A program made the translations under genes and the position numbers. Shown here piece by piece: positions 21,418 to 28,351 of a stretch of 59,376 nt of DNA. The notes under the pieces are model-generated. The model ran no database searches. It saw only the letters and a list, made by a program, of their open reading frames with translations, and had not been told where the DNA came from. This stretch comes from Frateuria flava (GTDB lineage: Bacteria; Pseudomonadota; Gammaproteobacteria; Xanthomonadales; Rhodanobacteraceae), in contig NZ_JAGJRS010000028.1 of assembly GCF_017837635.1 (NCBI RefSeq), positions 1-59,376 on the forward strand. Reading direction: 5' to 3'. Each line of letters begins with the position of its first letter. Within the stretch, counting starts at the first letter, position 1.

Positions 21418-21523
21418 CGGCGAAGCGTATCGACCTGGCCGGAACACCAGCAAGCGGTTTGGTGCATCCGCCCGCGTGGCTGGTGCGTATTCACATGGGC
21501 AAGACGCATCGACAGGGCCCCCC

Positions 21524-22465
21524 ATGAACCACACCGCCGAAGCTGCTCCCGGATTCACCCGACGCCTGGCGACCGGCGTGCTGCGCTGGTTCGATACCAG
21601 CGCCGTCGAAGCGGCCGACGACGACCGCATCGACTGGGGTCGCGTACTGCCCTTCATCGGGATGCACGTGGCTTGCTTCGGGGTGCTGTGGGTGGGCTTT
21701 TCCTGGTTCGCGTTCTGGGTGGCGCTGGCGCTCTACGCCGTCCGCATGTTCGCGGTGACCGCGTTCTATCACCGCTACTTCTCGCACCGTGCCTTCCGTG
21801 CCTCCCGTGCCGTACAGTTCGCCTTCGCGGTGATCGGCGCAAGCGCGGTCCAGCGCGGCCCCCTGTGGTGGGCCGCCCACCACCGCAACCATCATCGCCA
21901 CGCGGATACCCCGGCCGACGTGCATTCGCCGGTCCAGCACGGCTTCTTCCGTAGCCACGTCGGCTGGTTCCTGAGCCGCAACGGCTTCCGCACGGACTGG
22001 AAAGTGATCCCGGACCTCGCGCGCTTTCCCGAACTGCGCCTGCTCGACCGCTTCGACCTGCTGGTGCCGGTGGCGCTGGCGGTGGGCCTGTACCTGTCAG
22101 GTGCCTGGCTGCACACCGCCCACCCGGCACTGGGGACGGACGGCCCGCAACTGCTGGTGTGGGGCTTCTTCGTCTCGACCATCGTGCTTTTCCACGTCAC
22201 CGTGACGATCAATTCCCTGGCGCACCGCTTCGGCAGCCGGCGTTTCGTCACGCGCGACAACAGCCGCAACAATTGGCTGCTGGCGCTGCTCACCTTCGGC
22301 GAGGGCTGGCACAACAACCACCACTTCTTCCCCGGCTCGGCGCGACAGGGCTTCCGCTGGTGGGAGGTGGACCTGACTTTCTATCTGCTCCGGTTGCTTG
22401 CGCTGTTCGGCGTGGTGCGCGAGCTGAAGGCCGTTCCGTCCGGCCTCAAGCGCGGCGGTGGTTGA
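21524..22465 (+). CDS. membrane fatty-acid (acyl) desaturase
   Basis: 313-aa integral-membrane di-iron desaturase of the delta-9 stearoyl-CoA desaturase type, introducing a double bond in acyl chains using O2. All three histidine boxes are intact: HRYFSH, HHRNHH and HNNHH (in GWHNNHHFFPG). Hydrophobic segments lie between them. Start ATG 21524 (MNHTAEAAPGF). The next gene begins two bases after its stop, so it heads a seven-gene unit; its product, an unsaturated chain, is the substrate class used by the two CFA-type methyltransferases further down. Confidence 0.93.
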   Translation: MNHTAEAAPGFTRRLATGVLRWFDTSAVEAADDDRIDWGRVLPFIGMHVACFGVLWVGFSWFAFWVALALYAVRMFAVTAFYHRYFSHRAFRASRAVQFAFAVIGASAVQRGPLWWAAHHRNHHRHADTPADVHSPVQHGFFRSHVGWFLSRNGFRTDWKVIPDLARFPELRLLDRFDLLVPVALAVGLYLSGAWLHTAHPALGTDGPQLLVWGFFVSTIVLFHVTVTINSLAHRFGSRRFVTRDNSRNNWLLALLTFGEGWHNNHHFFPGSARQGFRWWEVDLTFYLLRLLALFGVVRELKAVPSGLKRGGG

Positions 22466-22467
22466 AC

Positions 22468-23712
22468 GTGCGCATTGCGGTCATCGGATCGGGCATCGCC
22501 GGCATGGCCAGTGCGTGGCTGCTTTCGCGCCAGCACGAGGTCACGCTGTACGAATCGAACGCCTACATCGGCGGGCACACCCACACGCACGACGTCACGC
22601 TGGACGGACGCAACTACGCGCTCGACACCGGCTTCATCGTTTTCAACCGGACGCATTACCCGCTGCTGAGCCGCCTGTTCGACGAACTGGGCGTCGCCAC
22701 GCAGCCGACCACGATGAGTTTCGCCGTGCACGACGAGCGCAGCGGGCTCGAGTACGGCGCCGCGTCGCTACGCACCCTGTTCTGCCAGCGACGCAACCTG
22801 GTGTCGCCGCGCTTCCACGGCATGGTGCGCGACATCTTCCGCTTCTATCGCGAGGCGCCCGCGCTGCTGGCCCAAGATGGCGAAGGCCCGACGCTGGGCG
22901 ACTACCTCGACGCCCAGGGCTACGGGGCGATGTTCCGCGACGACCACCTGGTGCCGATGGCCTCGGCGCTGTGGTCCTCGCCCTCGCGGCAGATCCTCGC
23001 CTTCCCGGCCAGGTACCTGGTCGCCTTCATGGCCAACCACCAGATGCTGCAGGTGGAAGGCCGGCCGCAGTGGCGTGTGGTCAGCGGCGGCTCGCGCCGC
23101 TACGTCGACGCGCTACGTTCGCGCTGGCAGGTCCGCGAGCGCCTGGCCTGCCCCGTACTGGCCGTTCACCGCCCGGCGGTCGGTGGCGTGGAGGTGCAGA
23201 GCCTGGCCGGATCCGAGCGCTTCGACCAGGCCGTCCTGGCCTGCCACAGCGACCAGGCCCTTGCCCTGCTGGCCCAGCCAAGCGCCGCCGAAAAAGAGGT
23301 GCTCGGTGCGATCACCTACCAGTCCAACGACACGGTACTGCACACCGATACGCGCCTGCTGCCGCGCCGGCGCACCGCGTGGTCGGCCTGGAACGCGCTG
23401 GTGCCGCGCGACCGCGACGATGCCTGCACGGTCACCTACTGCATGAACCTGCTGCAGTCGATCCAGGCGCCGGAGACGTTCTGCGTGTCGCTCAATTGCA
23501 CCGGCCGTATCGACCCGGCGAAAGTCCTGCGCCGATTGAGCTACGCGCACCCGGAGTACACCCACGCCTCAGTCGCGGCGCAGCGGCGCAAGGCGGACAT
23601 CCAGGGCATCGACCGGGTCTGGTACGCCGGCGCCTACTGGGGTTGGGGTTTCCACGAAGACGGCATGCGCAGCGCCGTCGCCGTGGCCGAAGCGCTGGGG
23701 GTGCGCTGGTAA
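22468..23712 (+). CDS. COG2907-type FAD/NAD-binding oxidoreductase
   Basis: 414-aa flavoprotein related to amine oxidases and desaturases. Dinucleotide fold at the N terminus (IAVIGSGIAGMASAWLLSR), then LYESNAYIGGHTHTH, and a C-terminal FAD motif WYAGAYWGWGFHEDGM. Starts at GTG 22468, two bases after the desaturase stop; a longer ORF upstream overlaps the desaturase and is a shadow. COG2907 genes commonly neighbour DUF1365 and CFA-like genes; in Rhodobacter sphaeroides such a set has been linked to furan-fatty-acid formation and the singlet-oxygen response (from memory, not checked). A redox step on a methylated acyl chain is the likely role. Confidence 0.9.
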   Translation: MRIAVIGSGIAGMASAWLLSRQHEVTLYESNAYIGGHTHTHDVTLDGRNYALDTGFIVFNRTHYPLLSRLFDELGVATQPTTMSFAVHDERSGLEYGAASLRTLFCQRRNLVSPRFHGMVRDIFRFYREAPALLAQDGEGPTLGDYLDAQGYGAMFRDDHLVPMASALWSSPSRQILAFPARYLVAFMANHQMLQVEGRPQWRVVSGGSRRYVDALRSRWQVRERLACPVLAVHRPAVGGVEVQSLAGSERFDQAVLACHSDQALALLAQPSAAEKEVLGAITYQSNDTVLHTDTRLLPRRRTAWSAWNALVPRDRDDACTVTYCMNLLQSIQAPETFCVSLNCTGRIDPAKVLRRLSYAHPEYTHASVAAQRRKADIQGIDRVWYAGAYWGWGFHEDGMRSAVAVAEALGVRW

Positions 23713-24482
23713 TGGCCGCGCCGCTGGCCAGTGCGATCTATGAGGGCTGGGTGCGCCACCGGCGCTACGCACCGCGGCCGCATGCGTTTCGCTATCGCAT
23801 CGCGCTGCTCTATCTGGACCTCGCCGAGTTGCCCCGGTTGTTCGAGCGCCGCTGGCTGTGGTCCTACGGTCGCGCCAACCTGGCCCAGTTCCGCCGAAGC
23901 GATTACCTCGGGCCTGTCGAGCTGCCGCTCGATGAGGCCGTGCGCCGCCGCGTGGCCGAACGCACCGGCCACCGCCCCGAGGGGCCCATCCGCCTGCTCA
24001 CCCATCTGCGCTATGCCGGCCACTGCTTCAACCCGGTGAGCTTCTACTACTGCTACGGCGCCGACGGCCACTCGCTCGAGGCGATCCTCGCCGAGATCAC
24101 CAACACGCCCTGGAAGGAGCGCCACGCCTACGTGCTGCCACTCGCCGAGGCCGAGCGGCACGGCCACGTGTGCGCCTGGCGCTTTGCCAAGACCTTCCAC
24201 GTGTCGCCCTTCATGCCGATGGCGCGCGGCTACGACTGGCGCTTCTCCGAGCCGGCTGAAGCCCTGCGCGTGCACATGAACGTGCTGCGCGACGGCGACC
24301 GCGACTTCGACGCCACGCTCGTGCTCCAGCGCCGTCCGCTCGACGGCACGCAGCTGGCACGCGTGCTGTGGCGCTTCCCGCTGATGACCCTGAAGGTCGT
24401 CGCCGCCATCCACTGGGAGGCGCTCAGGCTCTGGCTCAAGCGCAACCCGGTTTACGACCATCCACGCCACCACGGGACCTGA
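23712..24482 (+). CDS. DUF1365 protein (COG3496)
   Basis: 256-aa DUF1365 family protein. Typical sequence features: YEGWVRHRRYAPRPHAFRY at the start, LLTHLRYAGHCFNPVSFYYC, TNTPWKERHAYVLP, and KTFHVSPFMPM. Predicted peripheral, without clear transmembrane helices. Biochemical activity is not established to my knowledge, but the family travels with COG2907 flavoproteins and CFA methyltransferases in lipid-modification clusters. The start codon overlaps the upstream stop by one base (TAATG), and the CFA gene begins one base after its stop. Confidence 0.92.
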   Translation: MAAPLASAIYEGWVRHRRYAPRPHAFRYRIALLYLDLAELPRLFERRWLWSYGRANLAQFRRSDYLGPVELPLDEAVRRRVAERTGHRPEGPIRLLTHLRYAGHCFNPVSFYYCYGADGHSLEAILAEITNTPWKERHAYVLPLAEAERHGHVCAWRFAKTFHVSPFMPMARGYDWRFSEPAEALRVHMNVLRDGDRDFDATLVLQRRPLDGTQLARVLWRFPLMTLKVVAAIHWEALRLWLKRNPVYDHPRHHGT

Positions 24483-24483
24483 C

Positions 24484-25833
24484 ATGGATCTGGAACTGAG
24501 TTCGTCCGACGAGCGCACCATCGATGGCATCGTCGATGCGCCCCGCTACGCGGACCGCCCCGCCGTCGCGAACCAGACGGAGTCGCCCGCGGCGTACGGC
24601 GCATTCGACCGCGCGCTGCGTTCGCGCCTGCTGGGACAGATGGGGCAACTGCGTGGTGCGCGGCTCGTGATCGTCGATGCGCTCGGCCGGCTGGAGCTTG
24701 GCCAGCCTGCCGATGGCGAGCCTGTGCTTCGCGTGCAGGTGCATGTCGACGACCCGCGCTTCTATCGCCTGGTCGCCGCCAACGGCAGCGTGGGGGCCGG
24801 CGAGGCGTACATGGAGGGCCTGTGGCACTGCGACGATCTGGTCGCGCTGATCCGCATCATGGTGCGCAACCGTGACCTGCTCGACGGCATGGAAACCGGC
24901 ATGGCGCGACTGGGCGGCTGGGCGCTCAGGGTCTGGCATGCGCTCAACCGCAACACCAGGCAAGGCAGCCGGCGCAACATCGCCGCGCACTACGACCTGG
25001 GCAACACGCTGTTCGACCTTTTCCTCTCCGACGACCTGATGTATTCCTCGGCGATCTTCGCGCATGAGGACGAACCGCTCGAGGTCGCCTCTCGTCGAAA
25101 GCTTCAACGCATCTGCGAGAAGCTCGCGCTCGGTCCGGATGATCACGTGCTGGAAATCGGCGCCGGCTGGGGCGGCTTCGCGCTGCACGCAGCCACCCAT
25201 CACGGCTGCCGAGTCACCACCACCACCATTTCGCAGGAGCAATACGAACTGGCCTGCGAGCGCGTCCAGGCCGCCGGCCTGGGCGATCGCGTCACGGTGC
25301 TGCTGCAGGACTACCGCGAGCTCACCGGCCGGTACGACAAGCTGGTTTCGATCGAAATGATCGAGGCCATCGGCGCGGCCTACATGCCCACCTACTTCGC
25401 CGCCATCTCGCGGCTGCTGAAGGACGACGGGCAGGCGCTGATCCAGGCGATCACGATCGAAGACCATCGCTACGCCAAGGCGCTCAGGTCGGTCGATTAC
25501 ATCAAGCGCTACATCTTCCCTGGCAGTTTCATTCCCGCGGTGAGCGCCATGCTCGATGCCGCACGACAGGCGAGCGACTTGCGCCTGTTCCACCTGGAAG
25601 ACATCGGGCCAAGCTATGCGCTGACCCTCAGGCACTGGCGCGAGCGCTTCATGGCCAAGCGCGATCACGTACTCGCGGCCGGCTACGACGAGCGCTTCGT
25701 GCGCATGTGGGAGTTCTACCTGGCCTACTGCGAGGGCGGATTCCGCGAGCGCTCCATCGGCGACGTGCAGATGCTGCTCACCCGGCCGGGTTGCCGGCGC
25801 GAGTCCTACCTGCCGGACCTGGGGCCTCGATGA
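24484..25833 (+). CDS. cyclopropane-fatty-acid synthase-type methyltransferase (copy 1)
   Basis: 449-aa SAM-dependent enzyme of the CFA synthase family, which methylenates or methylates cis-double bonds of phospholipid acyl chains at the membrane. SAM-binding glycine loop LEIGAGWGGFALHAA; SIEMIEAIG carries the conserved acidic residue that binds bicarbonate in CFA synthases; the active-site cysteine region is FYLAYCEGGFRER. It is ~65 residues longer than E. coli Cfa, with an N-terminal lipid-binding domain. Whether the product is a cyclopropane or a methyl-branched chain cannot be told from motifs. Its stop overlaps the DUF2878 start (ATGA). Confidence 0.93.
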   Translation: MDLELSSSDERTIDGIVDAPRYADRPAVANQTESPAAYGAFDRALRSRLLGQMGQLRGARLVIVDALGRLELGQPADGEPVLRVQVHVDDPRFYRLVAANGSVGAGEAYMEGLWHCDDLVALIRIMVRNRDLLDGMETGMARLGGWALRVWHALNRNTRQGSRRNIAAHYDLGNTLFDLFLSDDLMYSSAIFAHEDEPLEVASRRKLQRICEKLALGPDDHVLEIGAGWGGFALHAATHHGCRVTTTTISQEQYELACERVQAAGLGDRVTVLLQDYRELTGRYDKLVSIEMIEAIGAAYMPTYFAAISRLLKDDGQALIQAITIEDHRYAKALRSVDYIKRYIFPGSFIPAVSAMLDAARQASDLRLFHLEDIGPSYALTLRHWRERFMAKRDHVLAAGYDERFVRMWEFYLAYCEGGFRERSIGDVQMLLTRPGCRRESYLPDLGPR

Positions 25834-26372
25834 ACGTCTGGCTCAACGCCATCGGCTACCAGTTGGTCTGGCTGGCCGCGGTCTGGGGCGCCTCGCACCA
25901 GCGGGCCTGGCTCGGGCCGCTGCTGTTGCTCCCGTTCGCGCTGATCCACCTGCGCGGGCGCGACGGGCGGCTGGATGCGTGGCTGCTGCTCGCCGCGGCG
26001 TGTGCGGGCACGGCGCTCGATTCGCTCTATGCCGCCACCGGCACCATTGCCTACGCATCACCCTTTCCCACCGCGCACGTTGCGCCGCCGTGGATCTTCG
26101 CCCTCTGGGCGGCCTTCGCGCTGACGCTGCGGCACAGCCTGCGCTTCCTGCAGGGCCGCTGGCTGCTGGCGATGGTGTTCGGTGCCGTCGGCGCGCCGCT
26201 GGCCTACGTCGCCGCGGCGCGCGGCTGGCAGGCGGTCAGCTTCCCGCAGGGGCCGGTCGTGGCCGTCGGCGCATTGGCGCTGGGCTGGGCGCTCATGCTG
26301 CCGCTGCTCGTGCGCCTGGCCATGCTCATCGAAACGCAGCCACGTCCGCAGGCGAAACATGTCCACGGCTGA
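25830..26372 (+). CDS. DUF2878 inner-membrane protein
   Basis: 180-aa polytopic membrane protein, five to six predicted helices, of the DUF2878 family (YQLVWLAAVWGASHQRAWLG; TALDSLYAATGTIAY). Function unknown. Translationally coupled at both ends: its ATG overlaps the preceding stop by four bases and its last 14 bases overlap the DUF1295 start. The context suggests a membrane-bound step or scaffold in acyl-chain modification. Confidence 0.9.
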   Translation: MNVWLNAIGYQLVWLAAVWGASHQRAWLGPLLLLPFALIHLRGRDGRLDAWLLLAAACAGTALDSLYAATGTIAYASPFPTAHVAPPWIFALWAAFALTLRHSLRFLQGRWLLAMVFGAVGAPLAYVAAARGWQAVSFPQGPVVAVGALALGWALMLPLLVRLAMLIETQPRPQAKHVHG

Positions 26373-27150
26373 ACTTCTGCACCAGCCTGGCTGGGTGTGG
26401 GCGGCGAGCGCCATCGCGATGGCCCTTGGCTGGCTGGTCCAGCGACGCTCGCGCAACGCGGGCATCGTCGACGCGATCTGGACGGCCGGCATGGGCGGCA
26501 GCGCGCTCTATTACGCGGCCATGGGCGAAGGGCTGGCCGACCGCCGCCTGGCCCTGGCGCTTCTCGGCAGCCTGTGGGCGGCACGCCTGGGATTGCACCT
26601 GGGCCTGCGCATCCTCGGCGAAGCCGAGGATGGCCGCTACCGCCACCTGCGCCGGCACTGGCATGACGACCAGCGGAAGTTCTTCCTGTTCTTCCAGGCA
26701 CAGGCGCTGCTCGTGGCCCTGTTCTCGCTGCCGTTCCTGGCGGTGGCCGCCAACCGGGCTCCCTGGTCGGGCTGGGACGGCGCGGGCATCGCGGTGTGGC
26801 TGGTGGCGCTCATCGGCGAGAGCCTGGCCGACCGCCAGCTCGCACGCTTCCGAGCCGATCCGGCGCACCACGGCCGCACCTGCCGCCAGGGCCTGTGGCG
26901 CTACTCGCGCCATCCCAACTACTTCTTCGAATGGGTGCAGTGGTTTGCGTACCTGCTGCTGGCGGTGGGTTCGCCGCTGTCGTGGATGGCGCTGCTGGGC
27001 CCTGTGCTGATGCTGGCCTCGCTGTACTGGATCACCGGCATTCCGTTCGCCGAGGCGCAGGCGCTGCGCAGCCGTGGCGAGGACTACCGCGACTACCAGC
27101 GCCGCACCAGCCCCTTCTTCCCCTGGTTCCCCAAGGATTCTTCGCCATGA
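26359..27150 (+). CDS. DUF1295/steroid 5-alpha-reductase-like membrane enzyme
   Basis: 263-aa polytopic membrane protein of the DUF1295 (COG3752) family, related to 3-oxo-5-alpha-steroid 4-dehydrogenases and isoprenylcysteine methyltransferases. Characteristic C-terminal region: GLWRYSRHPNYFFEWVQW, ending SRGEDYRDYQRRTSPFFPW. Relatives reduce C=C bonds with NADPH, so a reductase acting on an unsaturated acyl intermediate is a reasonable but unproven guess. Start ATG 26359 inside the DUF2878 gene; its stop overlaps the next ATG (ATGA). Confidence 0.9.
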   Translation: MSTAELLHQPGWVWAASAIAMALGWLVQRRSRNAGIVDAIWTAGMGGSALYYAAMGEGLADRRLALALLGSLWAARLGLHLGLRILGEAEDGRYRHLRRHWHDDQRKFFLFFQAQALLVALFSLPFLAVAANRAPWSGWDGAGIAVWLVALIGESLADRQLARFRADPAHHGRTCRQGLWRYSRHPNYFFEWVQWFAYLLLAVGSPLSWMALLGPVLMLASLYWITGIPFAEAQALRSRGEDYRDYQRRTSPFFPWFPKDSSP

Positions 27151-28229
27151 CCGACAGCCTCGCGCTCGACACCGCCTCTGCCGCCGATCCCGAGCGCGGC
27201 CTGATCCATCTCGCCGAGCGCGGGCTGGTGCCCGATGCCCTGCTGCGGCTGGGCATCCGGCGCCTGTGCGCGCAGCGGCTCCGGGAGGAGCGACAGGGCG
27301 GCACCGAGGCGAGCTGGGAACGCTTCCGCGCCCTGCTGGAGGAGTTGCGCCACAGTCCGCTGGCACTGCACACCGACGCGGCCAACGCGCAGCACTACGA
27401 GCTGCCACCCGCTTTCTTCCAGCTCTGCCTCGGTCCGCGCCTGAAGTATTCGAGCTGCTACTACCCGCTCGGCACCGAAAACCTGGAACAGGCCGAAGAG
27501 GCGATGCTCGGGCTCTATGGCCGCCGCGCACAACTGGCCGACGGACAGGACATCCTGGAGCTGGGCTGCGGCTGGGGCTCGCTCACGTTATGGATGGCCG
27601 AACGCTATCCCGGCTCGCGCATCACTGCCGTGTCCAACTCGCGCCTGCAACGCGAGCACATCGAGGCGCGCTGCCGCGAGCGCGGGTTGCACAACGTCAC
27701 GGTGGTGACCTGCGACGTCAACCGCCTGACCCTGGATGCCGCGGCCTTCGATCGCGTCGTGTCGGTGGAGATGTTCGAACACGTGCGCAATTACCACCGC
27801 CTGTTCGAGCAGATTGCGCAATGGTTGCGCCCGGGCGGCAAGCTGTTCGTGCACATCTTCTGCCATCGCGAACTGATGTATCCGTTCGAAACGGCCGGCG
27901 GCGACAACTGGATGGGGCGGCACTTCTTCACCGGTGGACTGATGCCGGCGGCCGACACGTTCCTGCATTTCCAGGAGCACCTTGGCATCGAGCACCAGTG
28001 GCGCCTTCCGGGCACCCACTACCAGCGCACCGCCAACGCCTGGCTGGAGCGCCAGGATGCCAATCGCGCACAGGTCCTGCGCGTGCTGGCCGAGGCTTAC
28101 GGCGAGACGGCCGCGCCGCTTTGGCACCAGCGCTGGCGCATGTTCTGGATGGCCTGCGCGGAGCTGTTCGGCTACGACCACGGCAACGAGTGGCTGGTAG
28201 GCCACTACCGCTTCAGCCGACGCGACTGA
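27147..28229 (+). CDS. CFA-type methyltransferase (copy 2, coclaurine-methyltransferase-like branch)
   Basis: 360-aa SAM methyltransferase of the CFA superfamily but of the branch often annotated 'coclaurine N-methyltransferase-like'. Motifs: SSCYYPLGTENLEQAEEAML, the glycine loop LELGCGWGSLTLWMAERYPG, SVEMFEHVRNY, HIFCHRELMYPFE, MGRHFFTGGLMP and FWMACAELFGYDHGNEW. Bacterial members most likely methylate unsaturated lipids rather than alkaloids. It is strongly diverged from copy 1 (different length, different substrate-side sequence), so the two are unlikely to be redundant. Last gene of the operon, followed by a strong terminator. Confidence 0.93.
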   Translation: MTDSLALDTASAADPERGLIHLAERGLVPDALLRLGIRRLCAQRLREERQGGTEASWERFRALLEELRHSPLALHTDAANAQHYELPPAFFQLCLGPRLKYSSCYYPLGTENLEQAEEAMLGLYGRRAQLADGQDILELGCGWGSLTLWMAERYPGSRITAVSNSRLQREHIEARCRERGLHNVTVVTCDVNRLTLDAAAFDRVVSVEMFEHVRNYHRLFEQIAQWLRPGGKLFVHIFCHRELMYPFETAGGDNWMGRHFFTGGLMPAADTFLHFQEHLGIEHQWRLPGTHYQRTANAWLERQDANRAQVLRVLAEAYGETAAPLWHQRWRMFWMACAELFGYDHGNEWLVGHYRFSRRD

Positions 28230-28321: not shown

Positions 28322-28351
28322 AAAAAAGCCCGGCTTGCGCCGGGCTTTTTT
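28322..28351. terminator. bidirectional intrinsic terminator
   Basis: Stem AGCCCGGC/GCCGGGCT with loop TTGC, flanked by seven A's on the left and six T's on the right. It is a strong rho-independent terminator in both directions, serving the lipid operon (+) and the convergent ompA-type gene (-). Confidence 0.92.

Follow-up and report, generated by a model that had tools for sequence, protein, structure and literature searches.

A seven-gene lipid operon of Frateuria flava as a probable furan-fatty-acid pathway

Furan fatty acids (FuFA) are membrane antioxidants, and extracytoplasmic function (ECF) sigma factors of the kind paired with ChrR are known from light and oxygen stress. In Rhodobacter and Rhodopseudomonas, the steps of FuFA synthesis have been demonstrated (PMC7380195): UfaM adds a methyl group to cis-vaccenate, UfaD, an FAD protein related to the phytoene desaturases, makes the methyl diene, UfaO, a DUF1365 protein, closes the furan using O2, and FufM adds a second ring methyl. 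Here we describe a related operon of seven genes, known from sequence alone, in Frateuria flava (the host), a member of the Xanthomonadales (Lysobacterales), the order to which Stenotrophomonas also belongs. It encodes, in order, a desaturase (DES), a flavoprotein (FAD), a DUF1365 protein, a methyltransferase (CFA1), a DUF2878 protein, a DUF1295 protein and a second methyltransferase (CFA2), and it lies in a stretch of 59,376 nucleotides (contig NZ_JAGJRS010000028.1 of assembly GCF_017837635.1), hereafter called the window.

A second described system is the cluster smlt2375-smlt2367 of Stenotrophomonas maltophilia (PMC11832516, 2025), the expression of which is 165- to 697-fold higher when ChrR is missing and drops back when sigma-Ec is lost (a single RNA-seq run, with quantitative reverse-transcription PCR of selected genes). 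In the chrR mutant, deletion of the cluster nearly reverses the raised menadione tolerance and ceftazidime susceptibility. The authors read the cluster as a sigma-Ec-controlled cyclopropane modification, and the word 'furan' is absent from their main text as available. An earlier note on the window had held that this combination of genes could not be named. The same annotated order had in fact been published for S. maltophilia, without a link to furans, and most of the set can now be named, the second methyltransferase being assigned to the FufM family.

We propose, with a probability of about 0.8, that the operon encodes a FuFA pathway acting on membrane acyl chains under ECF-ChrR control. 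The most likely product is mono- and dimethyl-FuFA, formed within a ChrR-type stress regulon; this reading is drawn from the kinship with the Ufa proteins and FufM, the DUF1295 neighbourhood and a shared promoter box. It would give the cluster a specific product, mono-methyl FuFA and probably dimethyl FuFA, and we found no such assignment in print.

Kinship of the operon products

The FAD, DUF1365 and CFA1 proteins correspond by sequence to UfaD, UfaO and UfaM, in agreement with the furan lead of the earlier note. The gene order FAD-DUF1365-CFA is identical in the window and in the loci of three Rhodopseudomonas genomes (AAP120, B29 and R. palustris JSC-3b). The FAD protein, which carries a GSGIAG motif, is 43-44% identical to the FAD protein of these clusters, the DUF1365 protein is 36-38% identical to its counterpart, and CFA1 is 39-40% identical to the UfaM counterparts. 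The FAD protein is predicted to convert a methyl-branched monoene to a diene, and the DUF1365 protein is a predicted furan-forming oxygenase. The AlphaFold2 model of the latter has a mean predicted local distance difference test score (pLDDT) of 89.1. A fold search with it against the PDB gave no confident match (best E 4.9e-3, template modelling score 0.17), and the best match in a profile search had only E 0.94; therefore no mechanism for UfaO is drawn from structure. Among solved structures, the UfaD-type FAD protein is closest to LkcE (1e-40), which has been described as an amine oxidase.

The earlier note had named furan and cyclopropane chains among the possible products. Under the cyclopropane alternative, both methyltransferases would make cyclopropane fatty acids from the product of the desaturase, and the operon would serve cyclopropane remodelling of the membrane. 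Both proteins match Pfam CMAS, their best NCBIfam names are cyclopropane synthases, yet all far under cut-off, and the S. maltophilia authors chose the names CfaS1 and CfaS2 (PMC11832516). The position of CFA1 was examined in a CMAS tree of 61 rows, taken from about every second locus of the host's order and of the named sets. CFA1, its relatives in the order, DUF1365-linked relatives and Rhodopseudomonas UfaM lie on one side of a branch (98/98), and ten Cfa controls (E. coli, the host's own Cfa on contig C1 and eight of its family) form a separate clade (100/99).

Residues were also read at positions 139, 239, 266, 268 and 317 of E. coli Cfa, where the letters C, E, H, I and Y were confirmed; we take Cys139, Glu239, His266, Ile268 and Tyr317 to be the bicarbonate site. 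CFA1 of the window has the signature SEQIY at these positions instead of the CEHIY of Cfa. SEQIY occurs in 36 of 38 CFA1 proteins of the order (the remaining two have AEQIY and CEQIY), in 34 of 41 other DUF1365-linked CFA1 proteins (five AEQIY, two incomplete) and in all three Rhodopseudomonas UfaM, and CEHIY in all ten Cfa and in both RPA3082-like proteins; the labels 'UfaM' and 'RPA3082-like' were assigned to the Rhodopseudomonas proteins by gene neighbourhood. Three loci (L175-177, copies of L186-188) were left out of this alignment.

Its position outside the Cfa clade and these residues led us to reject a cyclopropane role for CFA1. The option is disfavoured because CFA1, with Ser and Gln, lacks the Cys/His pair present in 12/12 Cfa-type sequences. 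Judged by sequence, CFA1 is classed as a UfaM-type methyltransferase and not as Cfa. Moreover, CFA2 is nearer to plant N-methyltransferases than to Cfa (see below), the genome already has a Cfa of its own, and cyclopropanation would leave FAD and DUF1365 unexplained. Taken together, the cyclopropane alternative is very improbable; of the two products named earlier, the furan is retained and the cyclopropane is given up for CFA1.

CFA2 falls in the same clade as the Rhodopseudomonas FufM candidate, with support of 100/100. Its family is found in AAP120, B29 and JSC-3b, adjoining DUF1295 in each, and CFA2 is 48% identical to such a member. Lemke et al. (PMC7380195) name UfaM, RPA3082 and RPA0924 (FufM), and list single and joint deletions of RPA0923 and RPA0924; RPA0923 would be the DUF1295 gene beside fufM. 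In both AAP120 and B29 there are two strong CMAS genes and, beside DUF1295, a weaker one (136-142 bits, covering most of the family), and this weaker gene was taken as the FufM candidate from its DUF1295 neighbour and by elimination among the CMAS genes. All three genomes also have a partial CMAS match of 42-45 bits. E, H, F and Y stand at positions 239, 266, 268 and 317 in 16/16 rows of the CFA2 family, and position 139 is Ser (11), Cys (4) or Ala (1). The nearest solved structures to CFA2 are those of the plant coclaurine (6gkv, E 1.2e-72) and related N-methyltransferases, well before Cfa (1.9e-27). CFA2 is therefore best described as a FufM-family methyltransferase with a predicted role in the second ring methylation.

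Two side observations concern this family. A common origin of the FufM family and the plant benzylisoquinoline N-methyltransferases is suggested, the latter being the nearest solved kin of CFA2. One CFA2 copy (G121:C2:25739) has a single TGA within it, which is a sequence error or decay.

The identity of just 48%, the N-methyltransferases as nearest solved kin and the dependence of the DUF1295 role on a predicted fold would also suit a shorter pathway, which ends either with the mono-methyl furan or with an unsaturated, methyl-branched chain while CFA2 and DUF1295 make a different modification (at another ring position, or of another chain or lipid). CFA2, however, stands beside UfaD and UfaO homologues in most of its best-matching named loci and is accompanied by DUF1365 in 106/109 CFA2-positive genomes of the order, and in vitro FufM uses 9M5-FuFA as a substrate but shows no significant activity on 18:1 (PMC7380195). 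We consider the shorter pathway unlikely.

The DUF1295 protein is likely a reductase, because it has a sterol-reductase-like fold and a corresponding profile match. Its AlphaFold2 model (mean pLDDT 94.4) was matched by Foldseek to the delta-14 sterol reductase 4quv (E 3e-3) and the steroid 5-alpha-reductase 7c83 (E 0.1), with a probability of 1.00 each and zero matches at E <= 0.001. The profile match to 7c83 has E 3e-5, and weaker ones are to a methyltransferase of the same fold. One locus (L104) was kept out of the DUF1295 alignment because of a stop codon in its DUF1295 stretch (L104:1986-2744), which is a sequence error or decay.

DES has three histidine boxes (HRYFSH, HHRNHH and HNNHH) and matches to the acyl-CoA desaturase structures 4zyo (3.5e-24) and 4ymk (7.3e-24). 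Two further desaturases above cut-off are encoded elsewhere in the genome, and FabA is present; therefore, DES is not the sole source of unsaturated chains. DUF2878 is dispensable in relatives: six of 40 loci of the order keep the remaining cluster and give no tblastn match to it, the spacing between CFA1 and DUF1295 being only 36-191 bases there. It also had no match in those named loci from which structure models could be taken.

Conservation and layout of the cluster

Among 151 genomes of the host's order, which are related to one another and were counted from hand-copied lists, a strong CFA2 match and DUF1365 occur together in 106, CFA2 alone in three, DUF1365 alone in five and neither in 37. 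The two genes are <=5 kb apart in all 100 genomes that have both on one contig, and on separate contigs in the other six. Forty loci were examined out of the 109 genomes with a strong CFA2 match (a contig-end fragment in G092 was left out), hand-picked for long contigs and spread. All seven genes stand in the order of the window in 25/40, and the core of desaturase, FAD, DUF1365, CFA1 and CFA2 is present in 35/40. The loci other than these 25 comprise six without DUF2878, four without DUF1295, two rearranged and three with a partial set in the examined stretch. The cluster is thus common in the order by gene content, and it is no chance assembly, a point that the earlier note had left to a neighbourhood search.

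Although these counts are inflated by kinship of the genomes, CFA2 is linked with FAD and DUF1365 outside the order as well. In the phylum, DUF1365 is present in 30/33 CFA2-positive genomes versus 121/365 others. Of the 26 CFA2-positive phylum genomes outside the order, 20 loci were examined in the phylum set and two further ones in the family set; one alphaproteobacterial family gave 20 CFA2 positives, of which 16 loci were examined. CFA2 is linked with FAD and DUF1365 in 11/20 of the phylum loci and 8/16 of the family loci. A scan of named genomes for the CFA2 family, of which the best 80 loci were kept as the basis of all counts of named loci, gave 58 with FAD and DUF1365 and 63 with DUF1295.

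In the window, the operon consists of seven open frames with zero internal stops (Table 1), and all products are above the Pfam cut-off (FA_desaturase, Amino_oxidase, DUF1365, CMAS, DUF2878, DUF1295 and CMAS, in gene order). The successive junctions are a gap of 2, an overlap of 1, a gap of 1 and overlaps of 4, 14 and 4 bases. The operon, its extent and its tight packing are therefore as first noted. Both neighbours are encoded on the opposite strand. The upstream one is a pseudouridine synthase (Pfam). In its longest frame, which reaches 21657, it overlaps DES, but its first domain begins only at residue 100, so that translation probably starts later. The downstream one is an OmpA-like protein, as read by eye from the sequence without a family search.

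Table 1. Features of the operon and its borders in the window
Feature	Position	Strand	Match or remark
ECF-sigma-type promoter box TGCATCC-N16-CGTA	21463-21489	+	ends 34 bases before the DES start codon
DES, membrane fatty-acid desaturase	21524-22465	+	PF00487 9.4e-24
FAD, UfaD-type flavoprotein, GTG start	22468-23712	+	PF01593 (Amino_oxidase) 1.2e-18
DUF1365, UfaO-type protein	23712-24482	+	PF07103 9.8e-88
CFA1, UfaM-type fatty-acyl methyltransferase	24484-25833	+	PF02353 (CMAS) 1.7e-77
DUF2878 membrane protein	25830-26372	+	PF11086 2.9e-38
DUF1295 membrane protein	26359-27150	+	PF06966 2.8e-71
CFA2, FufM-family methyltransferase	27147-28229	+	PF02353 (CMAS) 7.8e-39
Terminator-like hairpin with T run, 3' of the operon	28332-28346	+	weak: 0.7 such sites expected in shuffles

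Promoter box and the ECF-ChrR pair

The earlier note had reported neither ChrR nor an ECF sigma factor in the window. This holds for ChrR, as the genome has a single ChrR-cupin match, on contig C6; other ECF factors were not searched for in the window. The absence is a matter of the window only: the C6 match adjoins an ECF sigma factor, and this pair stands behind the same promoter box as the operon. The C6 ChrR protein carries HLSICAEC, HGHNGSE and a later H, read by eye as the zinc ligands listed in PMC6852236.

Published ECF boxes include TGATCC-N16-CGTA in P. syringae and TGATCC with CGTA-type elements in Shewanella. Among the DES upstream regions of 36 loci, none contained the published form (TGATCC or TGATCG, N14-19, CGTA), and one contained a looser form. 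An unbiased count of gapped words in these 36 upstream regions gave TGCATCC-N16-CGTA, which differs from the P. syringae consensus and is common to the front of the operon and the host's own ECF-chrR pair. In relaxed form, the box is present upstream of DES in 20/36 loci (the window included) and of ECF-chrR in 14/18 (the host's own included), as compared with 114/7200 random 300-base stretches. The genome has six exact sites versus 1.2 predicted from base composition (P 0.0014); they include sites before ECF-chrR, the operon, a BLUF sensor and a methionine sulfoxide reductase, and one at a greater distance from a PAS histidine kinase. Because the box is shared with the ECF-chrR pair, we infer that the operon is driven by an ECF sigma factor under ChrR-type control.

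Two of the exact sites may be described further. One (C10:117923, L201) ends 34 bases before the gene for the BLUF blue-light sensor, in keeping with a light-stress regulon. The other (C28:262294, L205) is just 5' of the likely ATG of the methionine sulfoxide reductase, which has a lipoprotein-like signal as read by eye.

ChrR matches occur in 18/151 genomes of the order, 17 of which have CFA2. The two are <=20 kb apart in 14/17; in the other three, including the host, they are on different contigs. ECF and ChrR matches are also found in 29 of the best 80 named CFA2-family loci. In some of these, such as L107, L110 and L126, ufaM-ufaO-ufaD lie on one strand and ECF-ChrR-DUF1295-FufM on the opposite strand. 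In the loci L016, L018, L025, L026, L028 and L031, a different ECF factor (30-34% identity) is upstream of DES, the box is kept and no ChrR match is present in the locus; another anti-sigma may have replaced ChrR there.

Proposed pathway and comparison with known systems

In the proposed pathway, DES would supply or enrich the cis double bond, which CFA1 (UfaM) would methylate with a shift of the double bond. FAD (UfaD) would then desaturate the methyl-branched product, giving a conjugated diene, DUF1365 (UfaO) would introduce O2-derived oxygen so that the furan is closed, and CFA2 (FufM) would add the second ring methyl. DUF1295 is probably a reductase that uses NAD(P)H, with a lipid of the pathway or the oxidised form of such a lipid as its substrate, and DUF2878 may be an accessory membrane protein. 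Transcription would proceed from the box in front of DES through an ECF sigma factor that a ChrR-type zinc anti-sigma keeps in check.

Singlet oxygen destroys the furan chain to an unsaturated 1,4-dione, and the reduced, saturated dione can re-close to a furan. A more speculative reading, which we regard as a long shot, is that the operon is a self-renewing membrane trap for singlet oxygen, in which the furan is oxidised to the enedione, DUF1295 reduces it and the furan re-closes, DES setting an unusual chain position. DUF1295 is suggested as the dione reducer because of its sterol-reductase-like fold and the chemistry of enone reduction. If the dedicated desaturase does set an unusual position, the chain formed would be an as yet undescribed furan fatty acid. 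The matches listed in a literature search included no paper on a reductase that acts on oxidised furan lipids.

Several points weigh against the proposal of a FuFA pathway under ECF-ChrR control. The S. maltophilia ECF-ChrR mutants are nearly wild type in tolerance to Rose Bengal and tert-butyl hydroperoxide (PMC11832516), and the near lack of a singlet-oxygen phenotype counts against a purely singlet-oxygen reading; the literature search found no paper joining 'furan fatty acid' with 'Stenotrophomonas', and the papers listed in further searches carried no furan-fatty-acid term. The three Rhodopseudomonas genomes stand in for the proteins of R. palustris CGA009 and R. sphaeroides, and JSC-3b (4.1 Mb of sequence) has one strong CMAS gene, not two, and one weaker. 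CFA2 is not always linked with FAD and DUF1365, as the phylum and alphaproteobacterial counts above indicate, and FAD and/or DUF1365 are absent from 22 of the best 80 named loci, some loci being truncated at a contig end; some clusters of the order lack DUF2878 and some lack DUF1295. As to the box, its count upstream of DES is not independent, because it was derived from those regions, and it is absent from 16/36 DES and 4/18 ECF upstream regions. Behind one of the six exact sites no gene is evident, and sites with one mismatch number 33 in the genome versus 29 for the control.

The FuFA assignment, the site signature and the linkage of FufM, DUF1295 and ChrR are new. A chemical identity is thereby proposed for a cluster conserved through a bacterial order, and a two-residue rule (Ser/Gln versus Cys/His) separates UfaM from cyclopropane synthase. 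The DUF1295 family is tied to FufM and ChrR across Proteobacteria, and the question of which organisms make furan fatty acids becomes directly testable.

Among the described systems, the same four activities have been proposed by homology for Arabidopsis AtUFAMD1, AtUFAO1 and AtFUFM1 (PMC10940516), where one protein resembles both UfaM and UfaD and the proteins are on lipid droplets, their function being inferred. The Aeromonas salmonicida cluster NTF2-SDR-FAD-DUF1365-cfa-DUF2878 (PMC10012899) shares the order FAD-DUF1365-cfa-DUF2878 with the window; as listed there, it is without FufM or DUF1295, and the available text makes no furan link. In the gammaproteobacterium Halomonas (PMC12089945), ufaM, ufaD and ufaO are consecutive, as in the window, and its UfaM produced 11-methyloctadec-12-enoate in E. 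coli; unlike in the window, no FufM, DUF1295 or desaturase is reported in the available text.

The S. maltophilia cluster (PMC11832516) encodes a desaturase, an FAD oxidoreductase, a hypothetical protein, CfaS2, two inner-membrane proteins and CfaS1, and is controlled by ECF sigma-ChrR; its order is the same as that of the window when compared by annotation, not by sequence. It is preceded by a gene for a periplasmic protein and followed by one for a lipocalin, and the ECF-chrR pair is adjacent to it, in contrast to the host, where the pair is on another contig. The available text of PMC7380195 names neither a DES-type desaturase nor DUF2878 alongside the FuFA genes, and in R. palustris fufM (RPA0924) is apart from ufaDOM (RPA2569-2571), whereas the genes are together in the window. 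The UfaD-UfaO-UfaM order is nevertheless common to the window and the compared Rhodopseudomonas genomes, ECF-ChrR control as proposed here is known in R. sphaeroides, and homologues of all four enzymes of the R. sphaeroides and R. palustris pathway are present in the window (PMC7380195).

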